DNA of 64,000 bases from Eutreptiella sp. 'Long Island Sound 2002'. Taxonomy: Eukaryota; Euglenozoa; Euglenophyceae; Eutreptiales; Eutreptiaceae. The position numbers and the translations under genes were made by a program. Below, one piece after another: positions 12,309 through 60,099 of this stretch (position 1 is its first letter; every line of letters begins with the position of its first letter). The DNA lies in the NCBI GenBank assembly GCA_964036045.1, contig OZ038385.1, forward strand, positions 22,891,813 through 22,955,812, read 5' to 3'. The notes beneath the pieces were generated by a model, which worked only from the letters and a program-made list of their open reading frames with translations, ran no database searches and was not told where the DNA came from.

Positions 12309-13044
12309 AGGGATGGATATAACGGGGTGGGTGGGTCCGGCCCGGACCCCCCCACCCCCCCCTTGGTCGCAAAAAAGGTCACGATATTTGGTCACAAAAA
12401 AATGTGACCCACAACCGGCCGTTTTGGGCAGCCCTCTGCCCGTACATGTGCATGGGAGGGGGGGGGGGGATGATGCAACATGGGATACACAGCACATTTG
12501 ACACGCACACTGCGCTGAGTATGGACCATCACGAATGTCGTTCAGGGTCATTCAATGTCATTCACTGTCATCACTTCCAGTGACAAAATTGTCTTGCTCG
12601 CTACAGCTACGACTACTTGACGTCTCATTATCACTGTCACTATCGCTGCCGCTGCCACTTGATGAACCTGTAGTAATAGATGCAAAGGAGGACAAGGAGC
12701 TTGCCCCATGTGACATGTCCGCCAGATTATCATTATATTCACCTGGTGCAGGCATGTGTGCTGTTGTCCTTCCTCCGCCCACCGAAAGGGCCTGAAACAA
12801 CGGCATAAAGAAACAGTGCACAACTACCAGCAGTCACAATAAACCAGCAGTCACAGTAAATTTGCCGTACCGGTGGGGACACACGACATTCCACCGTAGA
12901 CACCTTATTTGGTCACAATATTTTTCGGGTTTGCACTTTCCCACTATGGCCCTTTATATTTTTTGTGACCACTCACAAAAAATGACGCCCCCCCCCTCCC
13001 GGACCCAGACCCCCCAAGTGGCGCCAAAATTATATCCATCCCTA
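12309..13044. mobile_element. MITE-like inverted-repeat element with 9-bp target duplication
   Basis: The ends are a perfect 14-bp inverted repeat, AGGGATGGATATAA at 12309-12322 and its complement at 13030-13043. Similarity extends inward as imperfect arms of about 100 bp that share a GGTCACAAAA-type block. A direct repeat TCCCCCAAC lies at 12300-12308 and 13045-13053. The size (735 bp) and lack of a transposase frame suggest a non-autonomous DNA element; an 8-9 bp duplication is usual for hAT or Mutator families. The interior holds a Ser/Asp-rich open frame on minus (12821-12558) that I do not treat as a gene. Confidence 0.7.
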
Positions 13045-35052: not shown

Positions 35053-35638
35053 TACCCTGCCCCCCCCTTGCAAACTCCCGGGTTAGCGCGTGACGGTCTC
35101 CCGGCTGGGGGGGGGAGACGGTCGCCAAGTGACGGTCTCCCGGGGGGGGGGGGGGAGATTGCAAGGGTATTTCAAGGCAAACTGTGGTACCCTCCACCGA
35201 TGCAAGCAAAGAGAACACGTGTGAAGCGACTTTCGCATTGATGCGGTGCCAATGTGTTTCATCCAACACTAATGTTATTGAGGATCCAAAGGAACGGTGA
35301 AGAACTTCTGGGTACGAGAATAACACACTTTGAACTGTTGCACATGCTCAGTTTGCATGACAGGCATGACTGTACATGGTCACCGGGAGAAAACATCTTG
35401 GGTCTGAAGTAGCAACACAACACACCCATACAACACCTTTGGAGAGAGAATATCACAGAACACACACAGGTGCTTGATTTGTAGTAATGGGAAAGCAATG
35501 CAAGGCCATGCGTAAAGCAGATGGGCAACACAAACCAGCCCACTACATGTTAACTACAAAAACATGGAAGTGACGGTCTCCCGGGTGGGGGGGGGGGGGA
35601 TTGCAAGGGAGGGGAGTTTGCAGGGGGGGGGCAGGGTA
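35053..35638. mobile_element. MITE-like element with C-rich terminal inverted repeats
   Basis: The ends are inverted copies of TACCCTGCCCCCCCC followed by TGCAAACTCCC (35053-35078, complement at 35612-35638; they differ only in homopolymer length). Just inside each end is a GTGACGGTCTCCCGG motif, present three times in all (near 35088, 35128 and 35571), each followed by a G run. No transposase frame or clear target duplication was seen. Confidence 0.5.
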
Positions 35639-36089
35639 CCTTCAGGCGATTCGAACCGTTAGCTTTAAATGCCGCGAAGCCAAATCACGTTGGTGTTCAC
35701 TTTTTTTTTGGCACACCAAGTTCAATGTGAGCTCTCACGCAACAGCCTGGATCAAACAGTAGCGCATATGGTACAAACGAAGGTCCCACATATGCAATGC
35801 AATGTGTCCCGGACTAAACCGACGGATCTCCTCCGTTCACTACTTGCTTTACCTGCCCTCTGCATATGCACCCAGTGAGTGAGTGCCACGCCTTGCAGCA
35901 ATTGTTGTAAAAACTCATATGTACTTGTAGTGTTGGCGCCTTTCACAGAAATTTCGTCCCTTTTCATGTGTCCGCCTCACATCAGCCGATGTCCTGCACC
36001 TGAGCTACGCCCTCTCTCTCATACATTTTTCCTTTCCTTGGGCGGTGCATCCTCCGACTCAGTCATTGGTTCCCTGGTACACCCTCGCG

Positions 36090-36656
36090 GCGCCTCCCTC
36101 GCGCCAGCCAATCCACAGGTCGCAAGGCACCCAAACGGGCCCACGATGACCTCGAGTCACTCTTCGATGATGAGGACTCCGATGATTGCAGGTTTGAGTC
36201 GCTTGTGCCCCATCAGTACCTCCAATCCCTGCGTCCCAAGACCGGCACTAGTCCCGTGCAACCCAACGTTGAGCAATTAGGACGTGCCTGGCACCAGCAA
36301 GGGCAACCCACTGGGCCGGCGTGGTACAGTGACGGCAGCCTGTTGGAAGGGCGCGCCGGCACAAGGGTGGTCAACAGACCTATGCGCATCCAGGCGAGAG
36401 TACCGGGCCCGCAGACAATTTCTAGGGCTCAAATGTACAGCGTGTGTATGGATCACAGCGTGCCTCACCCAACCGGGGGACTCTATCGTGCTTGACAACC
36501 GGGCTGCGGCCCAATGCGTCTCCAAGCCACCCAGCCCACAATCGTCGGACTATGACTTGCACGACGCAACGTACTAGCTTATCTCCACCAAGGCACTCCA
36601 AGTACGTTGGGCGCGCAGGCATCGGGACCCCAAAAAGGCGCATAGCTTGCAAGATT
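36090..36656 (+). mobile_element. LINE copy B: 5' part of the older, interrupted plus-strand copy
   Basis: This is homologous to the end of the reverse transcriptase ORF and the first part of the RNase H domain of copy A (A positions about 39014-38455). It reads ESLVPHQYLQSLRPK, then WHQQGQPTGPAWYSDGSLLE, and so on. It has TGG where copy A has a TAG, but shares A's later TAG after the HDATY segment. It breaks off exactly at the poly(T) end of copy A. The rest of the same copy resumes at 51463. Its own 5' end near 36090 is a truncation. Confidence 0.9.
36642..36656 (+). repeat. target-site duplication of LINE copy A (3' side of A)
   Basis: ATAGCTTGCAAGATT, identical to 51463-51477. It abuts the ten-base poly(T) that is copy A's poly(A) tail read on the plus strand. 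Confidence 0.9.
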
Positions 36657-36878
36657 TTTTTTTTAACTCATGACCGAAGTTCCACCAAGTGTCCATTGAG
36701 AGTACACATAGCAGGTCATGGGTCAGTGACAGGGCCAACTTTGGGTATGGGTTTGGTATGACCTACCCTCACCAAGACGGCTGCGGCGGGGTGGCGGGAG
36801 GAACGAGTCCTGCGCCTTGCCCCACCCTTGTCGCCCCGTTTGCACGGGTATGCGCGTCCTCCCGGACCTCTCGGGGTG
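36657..36878 (-). other. 3' UTR and poly(A) tail of LINE copy A
   Basis: About 220 bp follow the TAA at 36879, ending gagtt plus ten A (read on minus; two may belong to the target). The same UTR and tail are found at 53012-53234 in copy C, which defines the family's 3' end. Confidence 0.85.
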
Positions 36879-38814: not shown

Positions 38815-41800
38815 CTAGGCACGGCCTGCTTGCTCAACGTTGGGTTGCACGGGACTAGTGCCGCTCTTGGCACGCAGGGATTGGAGGTATTGGTGGGGTA
38901 CAAGCGACTCAAACCTGCAATCATCGGAGTCCTCATCATCGAAGAGTGACTCGAGGTCATCGTGGGCCCGTTTGGGTGCCTTTCGACCTGTCGATTGGCT
39001 GGCGCGAGGGAGGCGCCCCATTTCCATACCAAAGGACAGCAAGATTTTGCGGTACTTCTCCACCATGTGTGGGAGATGACCTGAGTTGGTATGCCTCGTC
39101 ATAGGCCTGTGTGGAACTCGCAAGGCCCGTTGGACTAGCTGGATAAGGGCGCATAAACCGGCCCGGGACGCGCTATGGAGGCCCAGTCCCCCTTCAGCGA
39201 CGTCCGTATAGAGGCGGTACTGCAGGTACTTTTCCACGCGTGGAGCCTGAAGGACAAACTCTTCGAAGGCGGTCTCCATGCGGTTGCCCCAACACACATC
39301 CCACATAAAGAGACTCTTATACACCCACCTGGGGATGAGTACGGAATTGACGATTTGTGCCCGCTCAAAGCTTGTCAACGGGAGGATGGTGTATGCGGCT
39401 ACCTGAGCTTGTAGGGCGGCGAAGAGCGCATCCCTAGCCTTACTCCTATAAGCTACACCAGCGATGGTGTGGCCCAAGTAGGTGAACATGGGGTCCTTGA
39501 AGTCGAGGCGATGCTGCCCCCACCAGATGTGCTTTGCCTGCTGGGCACCCCCTAAGGTAGCGCCCGAGGACCGTGGTATGTGGAAGTGATACACTTCTGT
39601 CTTGTTAGGATTGAACTGGATCCCAATCTGGGACCCCCAAGCGGAGAGGTCGGTGAGGAGTTGTTCCAATTCAGAATAATCTTTGACAATGATGGCAATA
39701 TCGTCAACATAAACGAATGTGTCCGGGTACTTGGCGATCAAACGCTTGATCAACAACTCATATACAATAGCGAACAAGAGCGGGGAGCAGGGGCATCTTT
39801 CTTTGACGCCCCGCGTGGGCTTGAAATAAATACGTTCCCCTTGTATGTCCGTGTATGTGTCAGTATGTGCATAGATCGTGCGGAAGGCGTTCACATAGTT
39901 CGGCGGGAGCCCGGCATGGTTCAGGATGGAGAAAATGACCTCGTGGATTGTGGACGGGAAGGCTTTGGCAACATCCAACAAAACAACAAAAGGCTCCCGG
40001 CCCTCCAATTCATGCTCATGGAGGGAGTTGACTAAGTTCGCAGCTTGCTCAGTTGCGGTGTGCAAAGGCCTTGACCCATACTGCCCGGGGCTAGCAACCC
40101 GGTCCACGAGGCGCTGCAGACGGGGCCTGTACAGCTTCATGATAACACGATATATACTGTTGGTCACGGCAATGGGTCGATAATTCTCGGGGCGGTCAGG
40201 ATCCCCTTTCTTGTACATCAACACACACTCAGACCGCAGCCAATGCTGCGGGATATCTCCTGTTCTCCATACTTCCAGCACCCCCTCATACAATGTGTGC
40301 AGCGTATCATCTGGCAGCATACCCAGCAAGCGGTGCGGAACCCCATCAGGGCCCACGGCTTTCTTGCGCTCGCCCATACATGCCCTTTTGAACTCATCGA
40401 AGCTTGGTGGGTCATCAGTCATGTGCCCCTGTGGGATGAGCTGTGGGATGAGTGCTTCAATGGCCGGCATGTCATAGGGGGGGTTGCCACTGAAGTTGGC
40501 CAGCAAAGCGCGCGCCAGGTCCGGACTGGGTTGCTTTTGCGTGGGCTTCAATGGTCCGCGGGTCCAGTTTTTGGTCAAGCGGAAGAATACCCCATCCTTG
40601 CGGAGGGCAGCATGACGCATGGTATAGAGGCGCTTGTTGGCCACTTCGCGCAGCTCCTGCGCGATGCGCTTCTTGACCACTTGGAAGTGTTTGTGCCACT
40701 GTTGTGTGTTAGTTTTGAGACGGGTCCGCTTGGTGCGCTTCCCCTGTCGCATGACGGCCTGCGCCACCGCCTTGAGGACGGCATCAGCGCGTGATACTGC
40801 GTCCATTGGGGTGTCTAGCCCGGCGAGTATGTGTTGTGTCTCCTGCACGGCGGCTCGCTCTTGCCGCACATTCCACTTCTTGGCAGGGTGCGTGGCTTTG
40901 ATGAAGGACTCACAGTCCGTGGAGGTGAGGCCTGTAGTCATTAGGACGAGCCGGTGGTCGGAGGTGGGCATGGCGACAGTATGGTATGTCATGGGGCTAA
41001 CATTCCCCCAGCACCGCGAAGAGACCAGGATGGCATCCAGGCGGTGGCACCCTCTGGTGTGTCCCGCCTGTACAGACCCATCGGGGCATAGTTCGTGCAG
41101 CGGGTCGTATAGACGGCGGTTCAGAAGGTCATCGTGCAAAAACCGACTTGGGGTGCTGCTCCAAATAGAGTCGTTGAAGTTGCCCATGAGTACATTGTAT
41201 TGGTGCGTCTCAACGAAGGCATCTTGCCTCTTCATGGTGGCTGCAGTTTGGAGTCCATAGTAGTTGAGGACCCGTAGTCGTGGCTTGTTGGGAAGCTGCA
41301 AAGTAAGTCCGAGAAAGGTCCCGTCTGGGTCTGCAAAAAGCGAGGCGCGTTGATTGCCGTCCTTGAGCACGAAGTGGTCCATTGTGTTGCGGACCAGGAA
41401 TGCCACCCCATTGATGGTCCCGGACGGGTGTGGGTGATAGTAGATCTGCCACTCGGGGAAGGTTAATGGTGTTGCCGCCTCTATGTTGGGGAAGGTAGGC
41501 TTAACTTCTTGTAAGCCGGCAATGTCGAGGCGCATATCGGACAAGAGCTGTACGATGGTTACCCATCGGTCCCAATCAACCGTGGGGCCCCCAATATTGA
41601 AGGATGCCCACTGGAGGCCATCGCCACTTGGTTGCGTGCAACTGGTAGCAGACTTGACCACTCCCTTGTTCAGTGCAGTATACACGGCTGCCCATTGACC
41701 ACTCGAAGGCCCGGGGTTGAGCTCGATGTCTCCCCCAAGCAACAGTAGAAGGGCTTCCCACGGCCTGTAGGGGCCCAGGTGCCCCCGAAGATACGTCTTA

Positions 41801-42066
41801 GAAACGAGCCAACTGAGAGGCCGCCCCCTGTCCCAGACCCGGTAAATGCGCGCCCCACGGTGTTCCCATCTCATGCCATGGGCCCACCATGTGCGTCGGG
41901 GCGAACGGCGCCTCACCCGTGACGGTCCGACGTACCATGTAATCCCGCGTCCTGCCCCCACTATGACGAGCTCATGAATATCGGGGAGCAATGAATGCCG
42001 CATGACGTGGCTCACGCAACCTTCTACGCAGACGAGGAGGCACAGGACCCACAGGCAGAATCCCAT
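38815..42066 (-). CDS. LINE copy A pol: signal-like start, 2A, APE endonuclease, reverse transcriptase
   Basis: The frame has 1083 codons. Residues 1-20 look like a signal peptide or membrane anchor (GFCLWVLCLLVCVEGC). Residues 107-120 end in LLLLLGGDIELNPGP, a strong 2A motif that would release the first 119 residues. The APE endonuclease follows: WASFNIGG near 142, LQEVKP, GNFND at 295-299 (usual GDFN) and SDHRLV at 369-374. The reverse transcriptase has KAVGPDGVP, RPIAVTNSIYR, LLDVAKAFPST (motif A), GVKERCPCSPLLFA (motif B) and YVDD at 786-789 (motif C). An acidic tail (ESLFDDEDSDD) leads to a TAG that is TGG in copy B, so this stop is a mutation and RNase H was once part of the same protein. 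It copies the element's RNA at a nicked target. Confidence 0.9.
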   Translation of the reverse strand: MGFCLWVLCLLVCVEGCVSHVMRHSLLPDIHELVIVGAGRGITWYVGPSRVRRRSPRRTWWAHGMRWEHRGARIYRVWDRGRPLSWLVSKTYLRGHLGPYRPWEALLLLLGGDIELNPGPSSGQWAAVYTALNKGVVKSATSCTQPSGDGLQWASFNIGGPTVDWDRWVTIVQLLSDMRLDIAGLQEVKPTFPNIEAATPLTFPEWQIYYHPHPSGTINGVAFLVRNTMDHFVLKDGNQRASLFADPDGTFLGLTLQLPNKPRLRVLNYYGLQTAATMKRQDAFVETHQYNVLMGNFNDSIWSSTPSRFLHDDLLNRRLYDPLHELCPDGSVQAGHTRGCHRLDAILVSSRCWGNVSPMTYHTVAMPTSDHRLVLMTTGLTSTDCESFIKATHPAKKWNVRQERAAVQETQHILAGLDTPMDAVSRADAVLKAVAQAVMRQGKRTKRTRLKTNTQQWHKHFQVVKKRIAQELREVANKRLYTMRHAALRKDGVFFRLTKNWTRGPLKPTQKQPSPDLARALLANFSGNPPYDMPAIEALIPQLIPQGHMTDDPPSFDEFKRACMGERKKAVGPDGVPHRLLGMLPDDTLHTLYEGVLEVWRTGDIPQHWLRSECVLMYKKGDPDRPENYRPIAVTNSIYRVIMKLYRPRLQRLVDRVASPGQYGSRPLHTATEQAANLVNSLHEHELEGREPFVVLLDVAKAFPSTIHEVIFSILNHAGLPPNYVNAFRTIYAHTDTYTDIQGERIYFKPTRGVKERCPCSPLLFAIVYELLIKRLIAKYPDTFVYVDDIAIIVKDYSELEQLLTDLSAWGSQIGIQFNPNKTEVYHFHIPRSSGATLGGAQQAKHIWWGQHRLDFKDPMFTYLGHTIAGVAYRSKARDALFAALQAQVAAYTILPLTSFERAQIVNSVLIPRWVYKSLFMWDVCWGNRMETAFEEFVLQAPRVEKYLQYRLYTDVAEGGLGLHSASRAGLCALIQLVQRALRVPHRPMTRHTNSGHLPHMVEKYRKILLSFGMEMGRLPRASQSTGRKAPKRAHDDLESLFDDEDSDDCRFESLVPHQYLQSLRAKSGTSPVQPNVEQAGRA
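41707..41730 (-). other. 2A-type recoding motif 3 (DIELNPGP), upstream of the endonuclease
   Basis: Exact motif with the typical leucine-rich lead-in (LLLLLGG). It is conserved in copy D at 58740-58717. N-terminal 2A motifs after a signal-like segment are known in some animal and trypanosome non-LTR elements and have been linked to dual targeting. Confidence 0.9.
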
Positions 42067-42099
42067 CGTGCCCCCAGACTGGGGTGACTTGCGTGCTGC

Positions 42100-44895: not shown

Positions 44896-46086
44896 TCATG
44901 TCGGCGTGAACTGGAGTTGCATGGGGTCTAATTCCATGGACTCGAGACCCCGGTGTCCAGGGGACCCAGGTGGCGTGGGGGATGTGGGGCCCGGGTTGCG
45001 CTCCACATCGCCACATTGTACCACCGGAATATGGGAGTTGCGGCGGTAAGGAACTGACATAGGGGGTCCAGGAGGCGGTGGTGGTGGTGGCGGGGGTGCG
45101 GTGGATGATGTCGCTGAGTCGAGTGCATAGCTCAAAATTGCTCGCTTGCTCTCGTAGAAGACCCTCTCTGTCAACCTCAAGAAGTGTTGTAGGTGGCGTG
45201 TACACTCGTGCACATGTAGATCGGCATACGACCCCAGCGGAGTCTCGCGCACCGCGGGGAAGTGCACCTCAAAATGGGACTGGAGGCGTGTCCATTCTGA
45301 ATCCACCACATCTTGCAATATAGTTCGCATGGGGAGTGCGTTGGGGGAGGAAGGGGAGGCCGAGGAAACCCCCCCAGACGAGTGCGTTGGATTGAAGTCC
45401 ACTTCGGGATATTCTGTGTCGAGGTCCATGTAATCTTCGTCTCCGGGCGGGGTCCCTGCGGGGGCGGGGGGTGGTTTTTGGAGGTGCCCTGTGAGTCCAT
45501 GGGATGCGCATCGCCAGGGGCATCCTTGAAGCCGGGGGTCATATGCGCATAGAGTGCACAGCCGGTGCAGCGGGTGACACGGTAGCGGGAACAGCAAGGC
45601 ATCCTCGTAGCACAGAGGGCAACGCTCGAGGTCTTGTCTCAGAACTTCAATGGAGTATTGGCCCCCTCCCGATCCATCAAGCGAAGACACCTCTCCATGT
45701 TCGCCATGGGCCTCCCCGAGCTGAAGCAATGAGGACCTTGGTGAGGCACGAGCTTGCGCATAGGTCGGGAGTTCCTCCGGGCGATAGAGCAGATCGGTAG
45801 GGAGCCATCCCCAGCTGGAGTCACCTTGTGCATCCGTAGGCGGTGGGGGGCCCACATGGCGGTGTAGCAACCCAGCGGGGAGACATCCCCAGTCGGGATG
45901 GGATGAGATATGCAATTGGGTCTTGTTGTCGTTGGACCTCTCCACACTGGTGAACCGGAACTTGCGGCCCATGATTGGCCGTCGGCCGTTGGTCCATGTG
46001 GCAGGCGACGTGGAGCTGCGGGGAGTGTGCAGGCCGTGGTCGCTCGGGTTGCGCCGAGTCCCTCGGTGGCGGTTCGCGTTGTGCAC
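44896..46086 (-). CDS. LINE copy A ORF: RING-like zinc finger, poly-Pro and 2A motif
   Basis: The 396-codon frame is in the main frame. Near residues 155-195 it has a RING-like arrangement: CPLCYEDALLFPLPCHPLHR, then LCTLC, then CPWRC. The order fits C3HC4-type spacing, though the last pair has three residues between cysteines. RING domains often confer E3 ubiquitin-ligase activity; whether this one does is untested. Two similar segments, DWGCLPAGLL and SWGWLPTDLL, precede it. Near the C-terminus a poly-proline run leads to VVQCGDVERNPGP, the second 2A motif. About 30 residues follow before TGA. The next ORF starts 33 bp downstream in the same frame. Confidence 0.6.
   Translation of the reverse strand: MHNANRHRGTRRNPSDHGLHTPRSSTSPATWTNGRRPIMGRKFRFTSVERSNDNKTQLHISSHPDWGCLPAGLLHRHVGPPPPTDAQGDSSWGWLPTDLLYRPEELPTYAQARASPRSSLLQLGEAHGEHGEVSSLDGSGGGQYSIEVLRQDLERCPLCYEDALLFPLPCHPLHRLCTLCAYDPRLQGCPWRCASHGLTGHLQKPPPAPAGTPPGDEDYMDLDTEYPEVDFNPTHSSGGVSSASPSSPNALPMRTILQDVVDSEWTRLQSHFEVHFPAVRETPLGSYADLHVHECTRHLQHFLRLTERVFYESKRAILSYALDSATSSTAPPPPPPPPPGPPMSVPYRRNSHIPVVQCGDVERNPGPTSPTPPGSPGHRGLESMELDPMQLQFTPT
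44986..45009 (-). other. 2A-type recoding motif 2 (DVERNPGP)
   Basis: Exact D-V-E-x-N-P-G-P in the main frame, preceded by VVQCG. It would release the RING-like product from what follows. Confidence 0.8.
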
Positions 46087-47011
46087 ACCCAGTCAAAAAG
46101 GAGGTAGTGCCTGATGCAAGGGTGGATGACGATGCTGCTTCTTGCACGTCAGTTTCAACATCGAGGCCAAGTACCGGTGCCGGTGCCATCCCTTCATTGA
46201 CGTCGAGACCCCAGAGGTGGTCGCCACATGTGCTGCAGCATAGTGAATAGAAATCTCGGATGCCGCATCGTGAACACTGGATGTCTAGACCTCTTGTGGG
46301 GGTCATCGGTGATTTGGGGCTGTGAACCTCGGTGGTGTCCGTCGTTGGGCTAGCCGGGGCGCTCGGGGCAGTTTTGCTGTCCCTAGGTGGTGTGCAGAGC
46401 ACCGCGCCATGCATCTCGCCCGGGAGGGCATTGTGGTCGACATGGCACTGTTGGAGCAGGTGATGGTGGAGTGCCACTAGAGACGAGACCTTTGTATTGA
46501 TGGAAGCCGTGCTGCGCAAAAACTGCGAGATGTCTCCAATAGTGGTGAAGTCATTCCACGGCCGGGCAGGATTGGGTGGTTCCGGGAGTGCTGGTCCTGT
46601 GACCCCGGCCTGTGGCTCCGGCGGATACGTGGTGGTAATGCGTCCGCTTGGATGCCCTAGACCCCGTGACCCTGAGAGAACTTGCTGGGTGGGGTGTGGT
46701 CCCGGGTTGGCCTCTACATCCCCATCTTGTACCACGTCGTGGTGCCACGTTGTTGACTGTGGAGGGGGGGGTGCTGACTGGAACGCCAATCCCATGTAGT
46801 GCAAGGCATGCAAAATTCCCAAGCAGATGCAATTTGATACACGACGAATGTCACCGCGGAGGTCATAAGAACGTGCTGAGTCGTGCTGGTTGTAGTCAAC
46901 ACAATACGACGGATACATGCTGCCTCGAAGTACTCGCCACCTGTATCGAGAGGCGCCCGACCTTTGGAGGGTAGAGGGCGTACACCTGTTACCACCAATA
47001 CCATGAGGCAT
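45821..47011 (-). CDS. LINE copy A ORF (alternate frame): 2A motif and zinc-binding segment
   Basis: This frame carries the first 2A motif (GDVEANPGP, about residue 97), preceded by a hydrophobic stretch (CICLGILHALHYMGLAF) and HHDVVQ. Downstream is a likely zinc site, CSRCGIRDFYSLCCSTCGDH (two C-x2-C pairs). Its last third overlaps the start of the next ORF, which returns to the main frame near 46000. It is either a region between two compensating indels or a product of programmed frameshifting. Without other intact copies I cannot say which. Confidence 0.5.
   Translation of the reverse strand: MPHGIGGNRCTPSTLQRSGASRYRWRVLRGSMYPSYCVDYNQHDSARSYDLRGDIRRVSNCICLGILHALHYMGLAFQSAPPPPQSTTWHHDVVQDGDVEANPGPHPTQQVLSGSRGLGHPSGRITTTYPPEPQAGVTGPALPEPPNPARPWNDFTTIGDISQFLRSTASINTKVSSLVALHHHLLQQCHVDHNALPGEMHGAVLCTPPRDSKTAPSAPASPTTDTTEVHSPKSPMTPTRGLDIQCSRCGIRDFYSLCCSTCGDHLWGLDVNEGMAPAPVLGLDVETDVQEAASSSTLASGTTSFLTGCAQREPPPRDSAQPERPRPAHSPQLHVACHMDQRPTANHGPQVPVHQCGEVQRQQDPIAYLIPSRLGMSPRWVATPPCGPPTAYGCTR
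46697..46720 (-). other. 2A-type recoding motif 1 (DVEANPGP)
   Basis: The motif matches D-(V/I)-E-x-N-P-G-P exactly. Such motifs make the ribosome skip the Gly-Pro bond, separating products without a stop. It is in the alternate frame and preceded by VVQDG. Confidence 0.75.
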
Positions 47012-47943: not shown

Positions 47944-49392
47944 CTAGCCATAGGAGTCTACAGGACGCGTAGATCCTTGTGGCAAACCCGCTGCTGCCTC
48001 GATCATCCGACAGAGGTTTGCCTTGTCCCGATTGATGGACCGGCGAATGTTGGCTTGCTTCTGGCGTTGAGAGGGTGTCGTGCCGCGGGACGAATGGGGC
48101 GTGGATGGTAGGGGTCCCGAGCCGGTCACCCTTTGGGGCGCTGGAGGGGGCGCGGCGTGGTGCTCCTGGTCTGGGCTGTGTTCTTGTTGCGCTGCGGGTG
48201 CCTGAGGTTCTTGTGGTGGTGGATGCTCGAAGGAGGGATGCTGGCTATGGGGTTGGGTAGCCTGATGATGCTGTGGACCGGAGTACGGGTCGTGTTGGTA
48301 GGGGTGTGTGTGGTTCTGGTGGTAGTTTGCGTGATAATGCTGGTGGGAGTGCGGCGAGGCCAAGTAGGGGTCGTGCTGGTATGGGTGTTGGGTGGGTGGT
48401 TCGGAGGTGTTGTGCGGGGACGGGATGTGCGGGGATTGGTCCGGATGGGAGTGGTAGGGTTGGTGTGTTGGCTGGGTGTAGGACGGATAGTAATACGAAT
48501 AGAAATGTGGGGAATGTGGGTGTGGTTGATATGGCGTCGGGCCCGGGGTTTGTGGCTGCGGGGTTTGTGGTTGCGGGGTTGGTTGCTGGTGGTGTGGTTG
48601 TAGTGACTGGGGCGGTGGGTGCTGCTGTGGTGTATAGTACGGGTATGTGTACGGGTAGGGGTACGGTTGGAGGGGAGGGGGAGGGGGGGAGGGGGGGTGT
48701 CTTTCCAGTTTTTTGCGCTTGTGTTTGTGTTTCTTGTGTTTTTTGGTTTTTGGGTCGCGGCGTGGGGATGAAGAGGTGGAGGCCGTAGAGGTTGTGTCCG
48801 AGGAGGCGGAGGAGTCGGTGTCGGAGGGGCGACGATGTTTGCCCCCCACCGCCGTTCGTGTAAACACGCATGTGGGCGGCGTGGTAGTGGTGGAGTCGGG
48901 GGGTTGCTCCAACTGCCGCCAGTGCACTTCAGATACAGACATCGGCGTCGGATGAGTGCCTGTTGCGAAGAGATCTCGAGGACGGCTAGCTGTGGGCCAC
49001 GCCGGCTTGTCGAAGTGAGCAGGGTCCAGGTAGCCGCCGGCAGCGAGGGCGAGAGGGTCGTCCGTCAAGCCCAACGGGTACGTGGAGACGGGGACCGGGT
49101 GGCTAGACGCAAGGGTCATGCCTGCGGCGTCAAGACTCAATGGTGCGAGGCCGTGGCCTGCTGCACACTGGTCTCCCTGCACTGCTAGAAAGGAAAGAAG
49201 CAGCCCGTCGGCATTAACTAGGTCTCCATATGCATCATGGGCCCCATGCGCCTCGCCATGACTCCCAACCGGGAAAGGGGCCGGTTGCGTGTTGTGCTGA
49301 GGATTGTACCAGGCTGCCATAGTGTCCATATTTTGGCCAGGGGCAGCAAGTACGGTCCAAGGGGAGGGTGCCAGATGTGGCCCAGCGGACAT
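47944..49392 (-). CDS. LINE copy A ORF: Pro/His/Tyr-rich protein with basic motif and LHC-like N-terminus
   Basis: The 482-codon frame is in the same frame as the LHCII remnant and is separated from it only by the TAG at 49468. Its first residues (LAPSPWTVLAAPGQ ... MAAWYNPQ, later YPLGLTDDPLALAAG) echo the LHCII unit start and the PLGLADDP loop, so the two are fused by descent. The middle has a lysine/histidine-rich, nuclear-signal-like KKHKKHKHKRKKLERH. Next come about 200 residues of His/Pro/Tyr/Gln low complexity and a basic tail (SQRQKQANIRRSINRDK). It may act as the RNA-binding ORF1 of the element, which is inference from composition and position. A 70-bp block near 49105-49172 is duplicated near 49430-49505. 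It ends in TAG, and the frame reopens at once into the next ORF. Confidence 0.6.
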   Translation of the reverse strand: MSAGPHLAPSPWTVLAAPGQNMDTMAAWYNPQHNTQPAPFPVGSHGEAHGAHDAYGDLVNADGLLLSFLAVQGDQCAAGHGLAPLSLDAAGMTLASSHPVPVSTYPLGLTDDPLALAAGGYLDPAHFDKPAWPTASRPRDLFATGTHPTPMSVSEVHWRQLEQPPDSTTTTPPTCVFTRTAVGGKHRRPSDTDSSASSDTTSTASTSSSPRRDPKTKKHKKHKHKRKKLERHPPSPPPPPLQPYPYPYTYPYYTPQQHPPPQSLQPHHQQPTPQPQTPQPQTPGPTPYQPHPHSPHFYSYYYPSYTQPTHQPYHSHPDQSPHIPSPHNTSEPPTQHPYQHDPYLASPHSHQHYHANYHQNHTHPYQHDPYSGPQHHQATQPHSQHPSFEHPPPQEPQAPAAQQEHSPDQEHHAAPPPAPQRVTGSGPLPSTPHSSRGTTPSQRQKQANIRRSINRDKANLCRMIEAAAGLPQGSTRPVDSYG

Positions 49393-49467
49393 GACCCCAA
49401 GGGAGCGGGGGCGGGGGGCTGAGCTCGCCAGTGCAGTGCCACGACGCGAGGCTAGTGCCTGCTGCGC

Positions 49468-51315
49468 CTAACAGTGGTGCGAGGCCGTGGCCTGCTGCAC
49501 ACTGAAATACACCTGGGACCGGGACTGGGGCGTGGTCTGGGGCATGTGAAATGGCCCCTGCGTCTGCTTTACAGAGGCCATGGCGGCCAGACAACTGGGG
49601 TTGCCAGGGAACTCACCAGTCAGGTAATAAGGGGCGGAGGTATCGGGGGACGGGCTCAACCACTCATTGCGCTCAGGTCCGTACCAGGCAGTCAAGTTGT
49701 CAGAGACCCGGTCACAAGCGGCTAGCATGGCCTCAGAGGAAGGAGCAACCTGGTCCATCAGAGCAAGGGACAGACTGTAGGACCTGGAGGCGTCAGCTAC
49801 GTGGGTAGCCCTGCTCCCAACTGGGCCCTCACTGGTCACGATGGCCTGGACAGAGAAATCCAGCATGGAGAACATGGCCAAACGTCTTTTCTGGACCTCC
49901 TTAAACTCGGCGAGACCGTTAGGATCGTCGGCCAAACCCAGGGGGTTGAGGGTGCTACCAGGCAGCAAACCAGGATCTTTACTGGCACGGCCAGCCTGGT
50001 TGGCACGGTAGGCATCAGCGGCACCCTGCAACAGCACCTGACAGGTCAAGACGGCAAAAATGGGTGTGTCCTGGATCAGGGAAGGGTTGCTGCTACCCTC
50101 GTGGAAGATCTCAACACCAGTTGGGAACCAGGCAGGCCCGCTGAGCTGGGAACCAGTGAGGTTGGCCAGGATCTGAGGAGCCAAGCAGCCCATAACATCC
50201 AGCAGGGCCCAACGGGCGTGGATCAACTCAGCTTTACGGTACTGCTCCAGGGTGATTTGGTCAGCACCCAGATCAGCAGTGCCCCACCTGTAGTCACCAG
50301 GGTACACACCTGACAGGTAGACAGAAGTGGAACGCTCAGGGTCCAGCCACTCGCTGCAGTCAGAGCCGTACCAGGCAGAAAACTCTGCAGCGTTGTGGCC
50401 ACAGGCGGCAAACATGGCCACAGGGGATGGTGTGACCTGGCCCATCAGAGCGAGGGACAGATCGTTGGCGCCGGGGGCGTGAGCGGTGCAGGCAGCCCAG
50501 TTCCCAGCTGGGCCCTCACCAGGTGCGATGATTTGGACGGCGTACGCCAACATACTGATAATGGCCAAGCGGCCGTTCTTGGTCTCCTTGGCCTTCAACT
50601 CAGTGAGGCTGTCAGGATCTTCAGCCAGGCCCAGAGGATCAAAGGGCCCACCAGGCCGCAGCTTCAGGCCTTCGCTGGCAGGGCCAGCCTGGTTGGCATG
50701 GTAGGCCTGAACGGCACCCGTCAACAGCACCTGACAAGCCAGGACGGCAAGGATGGACTTGGCGTGAAGCAGGGAAGAGTTGTCAAAGTAGTTCAGGTCC
50801 CCCTCTTGGGATATTTGGGAGATTTGGTCACCAGCCTCAGGCCAGACACGCTCGTCGGGCCGGAAACCAGAATACTTGGTAGTCCCACGGGCGTGGATCA
50901 ACTCACCAGGTTACACACCTGTCAGGTAGGTAGAAGTGGGGCGCCCAGAGAATGGGTCCGACCACTTGTTGTAGTCAGGGCCGTACCAGGCGGACAACTC
51001 GGCATCATTGCGGCCGTAGGTAGTGAACTCGTCCGCAGGGGGCGGTGCGAACTGGGCGATGTAGGTGGAGGTCGTTAGCGGGGCTGGGGCTGGGGAAAAG
51101 TTGTTGAGGGCGAACCCGTACGCGTACTCAGTGGAGTCCATCCCTGCCCCGTACCCTCCGTTATACTGGGGCGCCGTGGGGAACATGGCGTCCAACTCGG
51201 TAGCCTTGCGGTCGTAGGCGTTGAACATGGCCACAGGGGATGGAGCGAATTGGGTGACGCAGGCGGAGGTCAACATCGAGGCTGGGACTGGGACTCGGCT
51301 GGCTCTGGGCTGGGA
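49468..51315 (-). pseudogene. degenerate LHCII (chlorophyll a/b-binding) polyprotein
   Basis: One frame, interrupted by TAA at 50913-50911 and closed by TAG at 49470-49468, contains repeated LHCII units. Unit starts resemble one another (FAPSPVAMFNAYDRK, VTPSPVAMFAACG, VAPSSEAMLAACD), each leading into AWYGPD/AWYGSD/AWYGPE. Helix 1 (ELIHARWALLD) is intact in one unit and deleted in the other. Helix 3 reads KETKNGRLAI in one unit and the chlorophyll-ligand-losing EVQKRRLAM in the next. PLGLAEDP/PLGLADDP loops are clear. LHCII trimers harvest light in thylakoids, and in euglenids the precursor is a polyprotein cut in the plastid. No plastid presequence is visible. Damage to ligands and helices says it is not a working antenna gene. 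It lies inside the retroelement insertion, directly after the spliced leader. Confidence 0.85.
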
Positions 51316-51423
51316 CTAGCTCGGGGGCCGGCTGAACCCGGACTTACTACCTATCCTTCTGCGGGCGTGGCCGCTGCAAAGGACTTACCGCCGGGATGTC
51401 GGGTGACAGGTCATGATTGCTGT

Positions 51424-51449
51424 CGAAAAAAAATAGACACTTAGAAAGT
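51424..51449 (-). other. euglenid trans-spliced leader sequence at the 5' end of the insertion
   Basis: On minus the sequence is ACTTTCTAAGTGTCTA followed by eight T and CG. From memory, the 26-nt Euglena leader has G where position 8 is A here, and is otherwise the same. It is followed by ACAGC and an ATG, not by a GT donor. It is therefore the leader as joined to a mature mRNA, not an SL-RNA gene. This shows that the inserted DNA was copied from a trans-spliced RNA that reached its 5' end. Confidence 0.8.
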
Positions 51450-51462
51450 GCTAGCTCAAAAG

Positions 51463-51477
51463 ATAGCTTGCAAGATT
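51463..51477 (+). repeat. target-site duplication of LINE copy A (5' side of A)
   Basis: ATAGCTTGCAAGATT, identical to 36642-36656. Removing 36657-51477 joins copies B and C without gap or overlap. Confidence 0.9.
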
Positions 51478-53234
51478 ATCAAGACAGGATTGGCAACGAA
51501 TTGGTTGACCTCACAGCCCGAGCGGGCAGTATTATGCACCCTTGCCATGGTCTTGGCAGCACATCACCCGCGGATATCCTCTTGAACAACCATGTGATGC
51601 CGTCCCGTACCCGAAAGTGGATCATCAAATCACGCCCCCTGAAGCTGGTACCCGAGGCGCATTGGACGTCATGGCTGCCTTTGTGCGCGGTCAACGGGGA
51701 TAAGACCCATGGCCCATGGTTGTGAGGGACATTGCGATGGCCAGGGTATGGGGCACCCTGGGAAACCGGGCCGGTGCTGTGCCCACGATGTGGGCAGCGC
51801 CCTGGCCTAGCAGTGCAGGAGTGCCTCTTGTCATGCCCCGCCGAGTCCCGGTTTTGGGACATTTGGACCGACGCATGGGAGGCATGGAAACCGGAGGCAA
51901 CCAAGTGGCGGCAAACGGCGTCCACCAACGAACTGCATGTGCACCCACGTGCAGCTCCCGCACTCCCTTCAACGATCCTTCCTTCCAGTCCAGGCGCACT
52001 GGAGGGTGGCAGTTGCCACATGGCACTGCCGCGTATTCTAGCGATTGCACGTGTGGGTCGTTGACAAACCGCAACACACCCCATCTTTCTTCAACAATAA
52101 ACGGCCCACGCACATCGTCCCACCTGTTGCCGGGGCCCCACCCCAGGTAGCTAAACCTACGGCCCGCAACATCTGGAACCACGTGAGAGGTGTTCTATCG
52201 ATCCCGCCGCGATCAGAGCCACGTTTCACCGATACCACGCCCACGGTGGAGGAACTTCGGTGGCAATTGACACAAGCAGTCACCACCGCTGAGCGCACAT
52301 GGGTCTTGTAGGCCATGGCCCGGCACCGCCATGTAGCACCGCCGCGCAAACGGCCCAGAGAACCGTCGCCGCCACCGGCACAGACCCCGGCCTAACCGCC
52401 GCGTGAGTCTCGTGAAATCCATGCCAGCCCTTTCCCGGAGTAGGCAAGGCAGGCCATGCTACACGCCCAAACGCAAGCCGCGCGACTCTGTCTCGAAGAG
52501 GTGGCACAGGCACTCGCCCGGCAAGCCATCAGAGAGAAGTCCCTCTTCTTGGCACACCACCACAAACACTTGTGTCGGCAAGCGTATTTCCTCTATAAGG
52601 AACACACGGCAGGATGGTATGTAGAGGCGCAACAGGAGGTCTACCAATTGTCCTGGATGGCGGACTCCCGCCAACTGCGCATCTGCCAATGGCGCACGGC
52701 AGTCCTCCCCGAGGCGTGGTCCACAGCATTGCGCAAGCTCGCCGCGGCATCCTCATGTTGGGAGCAGGTTCATGTTTCGCTGTCCACCAGCATCCAAGCG
52801 GACGAAGCGTCTGCATGGCGGACCACTTTGTCGGACCCCCGATGGGACATCCAAGGGGCCACTGCATAGCGCATGACGCGCTTGCGGGACGAGAACCCAC
52901 CCGAGACGCACAAGAAACGGAGGGCAGAGGCGCTGGAGATTCCTAGTGATCTCCAGGACATGCAGATCCCGCTCGAGGACATGGGCGACGTCATTGTCTT
53001 GCCTCGATTGTAACACCCCCGAGAGGTCCGGGAGGACATACCCGTGCAAACGGGGCGACAGGGGTGGGGCAAAGCGCAGGAATGGTTCCTCCCGCCACCC
53101 CGCCGCAGCCGTCTTGGTGAGGGTAGGTCATACCAACCCCATAACCAAAGCTGGCCCTGTCAGTGACGCATGACCTGCTATGTGTACTCTCAATGGACAC
53201 TTGGTGGAACTTCAGTCATGAGTTAAAAAAAAAA
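51463..53234 (+). mobile_element. LINE copy C: 3' part of the older plus-strand copy
   Basis: It continues copy B without gap: LQDYQDRIGNELVDLTARAG (RNase H end), then a TGA where copy A has TGG, then ETGPVLCPRCGQRPGLAVQE (zinc motif) and the helical domain with several frameshifts. It ends in the shared TAA near 53012, the shared 3' UTR and ten A at 53225-53234. With B it forms a 5'-truncated copy of about 2.3 kb. No clear target duplication was found for the B+C copy. Confidence 0.9.
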
Positions 53235-58082: not shown

Positions 58083-60099
58083 ACGATGGTGACCGATCGG
58101 TCCCAATCAACCGTGGGGCCCCCAATATTGAAGGATGCCCACCGGAGGTCATCGCCACTTGGTTGCGTGCAAGCAGCAGCACTTTCTTGTACATCAACAC
58201 CACCTTAGACCGCAGCCAATGCCGCGGGATATCACCTCTTCTCCACACTTCCAGCAACCCCTGATATAACGTGTGTCGCGTATCATCTGGCAGCATACCC
58301 AACAAGCGGTGCGGAACCCCATCGGGGCCCACGGCTTTCTTGCACTTGCCCATACATGCCCTTTTGAACTCATCGAAGCTTGGTGGGTCATCAGTCATGT
58401 GCCCCCGTGGGATGAGCTGTGGGATGAGTGCTTCAATGGCCGGCATGTCATAGGGGGGATTGCCAGTGAAGTTGGCTAGCAAAGCGCGCGCCAGGTCCGG
58501 ACTGGGTTGCTTTTGCGCGGGCTTCAATGGTCCGCGGGTCCAGTTTTTGGTCAAGCGAAAGAATACCCCATCTTTGCGGAGGGCGGCATGCTGCATGGTA
58601 TACAGACGCTTGTTGGCCACTTCGTGCACCTTCTGCGTGATGTGCTTCTTGACCACTTCAAACTTGACCAATCCCTTGTTCTGTGCAGTATACACGGCTG
58701 CCCATAGACCACTCGAGGGCCCCGGGTTGAGCTCGATGTCTCCCCCAAGCAACAACAGAAGGGCTTCCCACGGCTTGTCCGGGCCCAGGTGCCCCCGAAG
58801 ATACGTCTTATGGACAAGCCAACTGAAAGGCCGCCCTCTGTCCCAGACCCAGTAAATGCGCGCCCCACGATGTTCCCACCTCATGCCATGGGCCCACCAT
58901 GTGTGCCGGGGCAAACGGCGTCTCACCTGTGATGATCCGATGTGCCATGTGATCCCTCGTCGTGCTCCCACTACAACGAGCTCATGTATAACAAGGGGGA
59001 GTGGATGCCGCATGACGTGGCTCACGCAACCCTCCAGGCAAACGAGGAGGCACAGGACCCACAGGTAGAATCCCATCGTGCCCCTAGACTAGGGTCACTT
59101 GCATGCTGCTTTGGGAACACCCCACCGTGCGGGTGTGGGTAGTTTGGGCTTTACAGGTGGTTTGTGTGCCGGGGCAGCCGCTTGTGGCTTGATGGCACTG
59201 GTCTTGGCCTTAAGATCGCTGGTGGTGTAGGTCGTAGGTCGGCGTGTGTCCGTGCGGAGGCGGGCGTCCTAGGTTTCCGTTTTGGCACGCTTCGGCCGGA
59301 GGAGAGGATCCTCTGTATCCCATTGCATCATTTTCTCTTGCGCGTCCATGACGGGTTCGTGGAGACGTTTCGTCTTGAGGTGCTCTTCATGCAGTTTTGC
59401 CATGGCCTCCTTGGCCCCCAAGAACTTCGCAGCGTACTCGAGGTGGTGTGGAAGGCGGACCTGAGATGAGTCCGGGTCACATCCAACAACATGGAATCAA
59501 TGTGGTCCCGGATTAGAGCATCCTGGGTAGAGTCGCCCGTGGTACATTGGAGGACTCCAATTTTAACCTTAAGGAACGGCCCTGCCGCAAGGCCCGCACT
59601 TTGGGGGTTTTCGTAGGTGGCCCTCACAATATGCACGTAAGTGGGTTCCATGTAGAAGCCAGGCTCCTCGGCCAACGTCAACTAACGACCAAAACTGGCG
59701 ACGGTCACCCGGAATTCATACTTTGAGACTCCTAGCGATGCTCCCCAAAAGATCTCCGTAGCTTGCGAGCGGTCGGGGTTCGGGAGCAGGGCGCGCGCCT
59801 TGACCGCCGTGTAACCCCATTTACCCCCTGACACCCCTCCCGACATCATGTCATTGGTGAGCACGTTTTGCGCCTCGTAATGGTTGATTTGTTTCAACAC
59901 AAAGGCGAGCGTCAGACGGTCTAGGGTCGTCTTGAACTGCACCATCAACCGATGATTGTCGGCGGGCTTCATCCCCACGACATGCTCCATGAGTGTGCCC
60001 TAAATCAACTGGTGAATAATGGCGGAAGTCCCGAATGATATCCTCGTAAGAGGAGATTTTGTCGTCTTTTTCCACCCCAAAAGCGCTCTCGCACAACAC
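58083..60099 (-). mobile_element. LINE copy D: 5'-truncated and internally rearranged
   Basis: In order on minus: the C-terminus of the 623-aa ORF (60099-60001), the conserved 98-aa segment (59990-59682), and the pre-pol segment (59681-59110, frameshifted). Then come the pol start with its 2A motif (59076-58665), a jump to the pre-RT and early RT region (58664-58175, copy A about 40690-40205), and finally a piece of the endonuclease start (58170-58083, copy A about 41645-41557). That last piece belongs upstream. The order suggests template switching during reverse transcription. Both TAG codons flanking the 98-aa segment are shared with copy A. Confidence 0.85.
58717..58740 (-). other. 2A-type motif (DIELNPGP) in LINE copy D
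   Basis: Same motif and lead-in as 41730-41707 in copy A; conserved although the rest of copy D is damaged. Confidence 0.85.

Follow-up and report, generated by a model that had tools for sequence, protein, structure and literature searches.

Results

A LINE insertion in an older copy of its own family

The 64,000-nucleotide stretch of Eutreptiella sp. 'Long Island Sound 2002' analysed here (contig OZ038385.1; hereafter the window) carries between positions 36657 and 51462, on the minus strand, a single 14.8-kb insertion of a long interspersed nuclear element (LINE), at whose 5' end a spliced leader (SL) precedes sequence derived from a light-harvesting complex (LHC) polyprotein of the host. 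An exact 15-bp target-site duplication (TSD), ATAGCTTGCAAGATT, borders the insertion at 36642–36656 on the element's 3' side and at 51463–51477 on its 5' side. Joined as an empty site, both flanks align as one high-scoring segment pair of 2374 bp with 89.4% identity to the insertion's own 3' part, which rules out that the TSD is coincidental. The original prediction was thus right about one insertion with a 15-bp target duplication but had placed it at 49468–51477. The target was therefore an older, oppositely oriented copy of the same family, with its left part at 36089–36656 (plus strand, 94% to the insert's 3' part) and its right part at 51468–53232 (plus strand, 88%). A third family copy, broken and rearranged, occupies 60096–54702 on the minus strand. 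The flanks of three copies elsewhere in the genome (L011, L014 and L016) by eye also resemble LINE coding sequence, which together with the own-family target hints at insertion into LINE-rich DNA or at LINE-targeted insertion.

The coding capacity is that of an APE-type LINE. A reverse transcriptase domain (RVT_1, 39463–40209, Pfam E=9.8e-28) and an APE-type endonuclease domain (Exo_endo_phos, 40954–41607, E=2.3e-12) share one open reading frame (ORF) at 38818–42099, all on the minus strand. Three predicted 2A-like motifs lie on the same strand, DVEANPGP (46697–46720), DVERNPGP (44986–45009) and DIELNPGP (41707–41730); in the window two of the three are in the frame of the reverse transcriptase ORF and the first is in a shifted frame. 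The same three occur in L010, and the last also at 58740 in the third window copy. TSDs of variable length (15, 13, about 67 and 10 bp) were found in four of the seven copies with both ends in hand, a count that leaves out L013 and L017, in which the 3' end was not reached. The duplication of about 67 bp, with two mismatches, belongs to L015/L070 (C17:40.89–40.90 Mb) and is unusually long. A 3' A-run, read in the window as a short poly(A) tail at 36657–36664 (minus strand), is present in five of the six other copies read at that end and absent from L010. Copies truncated at the 5' end exist as well: one on C14 matches the 2.66-kb query described below only from query position 1950, with no LHC sequence in the 2.06 kb upstream, and in the older window copy the match starts at insert position 12446. 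No long terminal repeats were seen, the TSD being the only end repeat among the 20 of 22 direct-repeat families listed, and scans of viral contigs for the reverse transcriptase ORF, the LHC ORF and the SL found no relatives.

The 5' end of the element

Read in the direction of the element, the TSD is followed by 13 extra nucleotides (51450–51462), the SL (51424–51449), a 5' untranslated region (5'UTR) of 147 nucleotides, coding sequence of LHC origin (51276 to about 49600), and ORF1 (47947–49470), all on the minus strand. The SL matches 25 of 26 letters of the Euglena gracilis SL, and no match as good arose in 100 shuffles, so that the near-perfect leader claimed in the original prediction stands. 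The 5'UTR contains a short upstream ORF of 10 codons from ATG to TAA (51385–51414), the ATG of which is kept in all 26 aligned copies. The putative ORF start (51274–51276, M-LTSAC), at which the LHC-derived sequence begins, has lost its ATG in L045.

The LHC segment spans about 1.67 kb in the orientation of the LINE and leads into ORF1. Pfam recognises Chloroa_b-bind (E=2.5e-42) in two stretches within 49471–50910, and comparison with host units resolves the segment into a linker, a first B-like unit (50404–51015, 59% amino acid identity to host B, with a stop at 50913), a second B-like unit (49717–50400, 59%) and 37 residues from the start of an A-like unit (49600–49710), after which it is fused to LINE sequence. 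DNA identity to the host unit is about 80%. The closest solved structure is a chain of entry 9vfj, deposited for the photosystem I–light-harvesting complex I (PSI-LHCI) structure of Euglena gracilis (PMC12577709). ORF1 is rich in histidine, proline and basic residues, and its N-terminus was likewise said to be LHC-like; it indeed holds one more faint, decayed LHC linker, with a score of 83 that none of 2000 shuffles equalled (maximum 70), and the corresponding linker in L010 scores 85, again with none of 2000 shuffles as high.

As source we consider the host gene L073 (C17:48.99–49.00 Mb), whose open frame encodes an LHC polyprotein of 2621 amino acids or more with alternating A and B units. 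It holds at least five units of each type, identical or nearly so within a type, as concerted evolution would give. By themselves, the SL and this Euglena-type polyprotein would point to Euglena gracilis or a close relative as the probable host. The LINE ORF begins at the L073 linker LTSAYVTQFAPSPVAMF, a unit junction: its start, M-LTSACVTQFAPSPVAMF, corresponds to the A-to-B linker GLTSAYVTQFAPSPVAMF in the interior of the polyprotein, and the region upstream of the host's first unit is absent. Since the LHC part starts in the middle of the L073 polyprotein, the SL and the 5'UTR were not copied together with it from the 5' end of that mRNA. A retrocopy of an LHC mRNA would have the host's N-terminal region beside the SL, which is not the case in the comparison with L073, the only gene compared.

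A family trait with several unit arrangements

The genome searched comprises 2.28 Gb in 2205 contigs. The query from the SL to ORF1 (48800–51462, 2.66 kb) gave 689 candidates, of which 40 were scored, so that the counts are lower bounds. At least 96 genome matches were obtained, and at least eight places besides the window span SL, LHC and ORF1 from query position 9–18 to the end at 92–95% identity. This answers the proposed search for further copies of the junction: the SL-LHC-ORF1 arrangement is a family trait of a multi-copy APE-type LINE. Independently of the query, a 35-nucleotide 5'UTR pattern (up to three mismatches) occurs 26 times and a 29-nucleotide pattern 27 times (the same 26 and one more), with no hit for either control, reversed in the case of the former. 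An SL or SL remnant precedes the 5'UTR in 27 of 27 occurrences; among the 26 measured, its edit distance is 0–5 in 25 and 7 in one, while only 1 of 1040 control positions reached 6 or less. The LHC-derived start region is kept in 26 of the 27 (all but L051; L045 has lost only the ATG itself), and 25 (all but L051 and L062) continue into sense-oriented LHC units. By eye, the flanks upstream of SL-headed copies vary between copies.

The copies fall into three types. Type 1, with units B-B-A', includes the window and L010–L017; type 2, A-..-B-A', includes L018, L019, L023, L024 and L026; type 3, with arrays of A units, includes L040, L042, L043, L045, L048, L050, L056, L059 and L061, where L059 and L038 are the same copy and counted once. 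In addition, there is a long B array at C2:105.92 Mb, and SL plus LHC also occurs at loci with other 5'UTRs (L028, L030, L031, L034). L063 shares the A'-to-LINE fusion, and L052 and L081 are known from their LHC part alone; L052 and L063 are the least diverged, at about 89% DNA identity to the host.

Several further observations concern the SL. The first SL bases often vary in L039–L064, being other, extra or missing, as if reverse transcription had met a modified cap region. Genome-wide there are 7926 SL-like sites (up to three mismatches; none for the reversed control), and the eight examined (L001–L008) look like SL RNA genes, with upstream sequence in common and GT directly after the SL in seven. 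We rejected recruitment of an SL RNA gene promoter by the element, as the LINE copies have neither this shared upstream sequence nor the GT.

Reading frame and sequence drift of the LHC part

To describe how the LHC part has changed, we aligned 17 LINE B units, L063, L052 and four type-3 A units, a subset of the units found. All eight older indels that separate the 17 B units from host B (66, 39, 9, 3, 6, 12, 6 and 24 nucleotides) are multiples of three, although the 3-nucleotide one may lie on the host's side, and so is a ninth, a 36-nucleotide deletion common to three type-1 copies. The latter combines shared gaps of 2 and 34 nucleotides in these copies, the L013 alignment having ended there; likewise, gaps of 1 and 2 nucleotides in the first B unit of L010 were taken as the common 3-nucleotide gap. 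In contrast, only two of eight private indels are multiples of three (0 of 2 in type 1; 2 of 6 in type 3, with 1, 3, 1, 1, 84 and 1 nucleotides), and these, having arisen after insertion, behave about as chance. Excluded from the type-3 indels were shared gaps of 20, 6 and 4, an alignment-end effect where L042 leaves the LHC array, a 100-nucleotide gap due to another start in L059, and gaps where L042 or L040 leave the array.

Variants shared between copies are spread evenly over the codon positions in the LHC part, with 18/19/20 at first, second and third positions in type 1 and 22/28/24 in type 3, and thus do not show the purifying selection on LHC amino acids that a functional antenna would have. 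In ORF1 the shared variants are 9/8/22 (p=0.0025); singletons are even in both parts. The two window B units differ from host B by 38/33/46 and 56/37/49, and host A from host B by 32/18/46. The type-1 LHC sequence has accordingly drifted with its frame kept. Over about 462 codons the LHC frame is free of stops in four of nine type-3 and three of four type-2 copies; a stop-free LHC frame also remains in two of nine type-1 copies.

Two other features of the window were noted. Between 61000 and 64000, GC content is about 0.47 and GC skew is strong and constant (about 0.30) across 3 kb, and at 35088–35603 a GTGACGGTCTCCCGG motif occurs three times, with G runs after each.

Discussion

Most probably, the element descends from an old capture of LHC coding sequence that is now the translated N-terminal leader of a polyprotein bearing 2A-like motifs, in a LINE whose DNA bears an SL as its 5' terminus. 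Of the two histories offered in the original prediction, the older capture serving as the family's 5' region and ORF start is the one borne out, by nine places including the window with SL, LHC and ORF1 in a row and by the constant SL in front of the 5'UTR. An ancestor of the LINE would have picked up coding sequence from the interior of the host's tandem LHC polyprotein and placed it in front of ORF1, and the founding RNA was presumably trans-spliced. Translation would run from the ATG after the 5'UTR through the LHC part into ORF1, giving a long polyprotein that appears to be split by the three 2A-like motifs. The LHC part may then be a passive leader that is translated through and has ceased to be an antenna protein, its frame kept open by its position behind the start codon. 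Since its capture, the SL would have been carried in the element's DNA as the 5' end, with occasional re-addition leaving tandem SLs. That the copied RNA had been trans-spliced, as had been proposed from the leader, hence fits the ancestry of the family but is unsupported for the window copy, as the SL is now DNA in the copies. Nor is there support for a promoter in the LHC sequence, which had been spoken of as driving or heading the element and is internal coding sequence.

Several observations weigh against this reading or parts of it. No TSD was seen in three of the seven copies with both ends in hand (L010, L011, L014). L051 has SL and 5'UTR without LHC on that strand, and L062 the LHC start only; at L051 (C10:56.71 Mb), LHC pieces of 67–88% amino acid identity lie on the opposite strand in the upstream flank. 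One 2-nucleotide indel in L063 is not a multiple of three. Codon positions are not uniformly even, since the comparison of type-3 A units with host A gives 26/19/47, 29/22/51, 29/21/46 and 28/25/55, and that of L063 with the host 14/24/40; this third-position excess implies that part of the divergence arose under selection, either before the sequence left the host or during its early time in the element. Both copies read end to end, the window copy and L010, have interruptions in the long frame. In the window, the LHC repeats run in the orientation of the LINE and in the frame of ORF1, as originally described, but stops at 50913 and 49470 interrupt that frame and a local slip relative to L010 occurs at about 49480–49560; the frames of L010 are broken by stops, frame shifts and apparently also some 1.9 kb of additional sequence. 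Of 11 copies in which the net frame was compared from the LHC stub to the ORF1 motif, six (L009, L010, L023, L025, L028, L038) have both in the same frame and five (L016, L018, L030, L031, L033) do not, with the slip located between the two, perhaps within a run rich in C. Finally, a single capture is not proven.

The last point leads to the alternative that has to be taken most seriously, namely that LHC sequence was taken from host mRNAs more than once and that template switching replaced or extended the 5' array. We lean only slightly against it. Type-3 copies carry arrays of A units with full A matches of 70–81% amino acid identity to host A, the array of L038 meets LINE sequence at another point (VKQTQGPF), and B units are better preserved in L052, L063 and L081. 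In a tree holding 26 LINE units, a subset, 19 LINE B units form one group (100/100) apart from the host, while type-3 A units fall beside host A and apart from the LINE B units. Against this stand the 5'UTR and the LTSAC/YVTQFAPSPVAMF start common to all three types and the A-unit stub before ORF1 common to types 1 and 2 and L063; moreover, capture of one alternating B-A array followed by loss and gain of units accounts for the same data.

A second alternative concerns the SL, which might be added afresh in each cycle if transcripts started upstream in host DNA and were trans-spliced beside the old SL every round. We regard this as possible but rather doubtful. Two SLs separated by a short unrelated spacer are found in L042 (about 18 nucleotides) and L031 (about 15 nucleotides), and suggest that SL re-addition also occurs. 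The spacer-SL junction of L042 is present once in the genome, the search for a parent copy carrying it having returned only L042 itself. However, 25 of the 27 copies (all but L042 and L061) carry just one SL, joined as SL|ACAG if point changes are tolerated, and splicing at the next AG would delete ACAG, which is not clearly seen (L061 is ambiguous). The SL ends in CG, so that the join lacks the AG that a further seamless splice would need, and the 29-nucleotide pattern, at up to three mismatches, found no copy with a splice acceptor in place of the SL. The CG end and the lack of acceptor-bearing copies favour an inherited SL as the start of the RNA. Going further, we would tentatively propose that the host SL has been made heritable DNA of the element, standing at the 5' end of all 5'-complete copies found, and might mark or drive the start of the RNA, so that neither an internal promoter such as the Pr77 of trypanosomatid LINEs nor a splice acceptor would be needed, with the captured antenna polyprotein as N-terminal leader of a 2A-split polyprotein; this complete scheme is less likely to hold than not.

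That the LHC part acts through sequence homology, for example as a source of small RNAs that target LHC transcripts of the host, in the way suggested for nxf2 in TART-A, is improbable given the DNA identity of only about 80% to the host unit and the preservation of frame by the older indels found. We give practically no credence to a single 5' template switch in which reverse transcription left the LINE RNA for an LHC mRNA and ran on to the SL end of the latter, which would explain an SL followed by LHC, but not a family trait, an LHC part that begins where two units of the L073 polyprotein meet, or a divergence of this part by about 20% from the host unit despite an intact TSD; nor to 49400–51462 being an ordinary host pseudogene adjoining the LINE, which despite the strong LHC similarity is ruled out by its position within the TSD-bounded insertion and its recurrence with ORF1 at places with different flanks.

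The ingi/L1Tc elements, LINEs with endonuclease and reverse transcriptase, live in trypanosomatids, which belong to the same phylum, Euglenozoa, as the host of the present family. L1Tc is described as carrying a 2A-like sequence (PMC4981915), a further possible likeness, and trypanosomatid LINEs as sharing a 77-nucleotide 5' promoter, Pr77, with unspliced transcripts (PMC8190864). Judged by that description of Pr77, they appear to differ in their 5' end, which here is an SL or SL remnant in 27 of 27 occurrences, and the present family has three 2A-like motifs and an LHC-derived N-terminus. In Drosophila, TART-A is reported to bear a fragment of the host gene nxf2, 93–96% identical, in the untranslated regions of most full-length copies (PMC7785250); the two families thus have in common that a LINE carries part of a host gene, but here the fragment is coding, N-terminal and about 80% identical at the DNA level. 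Dinoflagellate retrogenes with DinoSL relicts likewise have an SL copied into DNA by retroposition; multiple SLs occur among them, and it has been proposed that the retroposed SL acts as a promoter (PMC6050394). As described there, they are retrocopies of host genes, whereas here an SL forms the 5' terminus of a LINE with its own reverse transcriptase. LHCs of Euglena are described as translated as polyprotein precursors (PMC12965295), and a gene of this kind, L073, is the source of the captured units, from which the LINE copy differs in lacking the region upstream of the first unit and in variants without codon-position bias among copies. The published titles and openings of abstracts that were searched, among which few subscription journals are represented, contained no link of a Euglena LINE to LHC or to an SL 5' terminus.

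Taken together, a LINE family keeps photosynthesis coding sequence of its host at the start of its own predicted polyprotein over many rounds of retrotransposition, and its 5'-complete copies end in the leader of host mRNAs. This opens the questions of how a retroelement in a host with trans-spliced mRNAs retains its 5' end and of the fate of a captured host domain that must stay translatable yet need not work, and it gives a route to study how mobile elements pick up and carry host genes.
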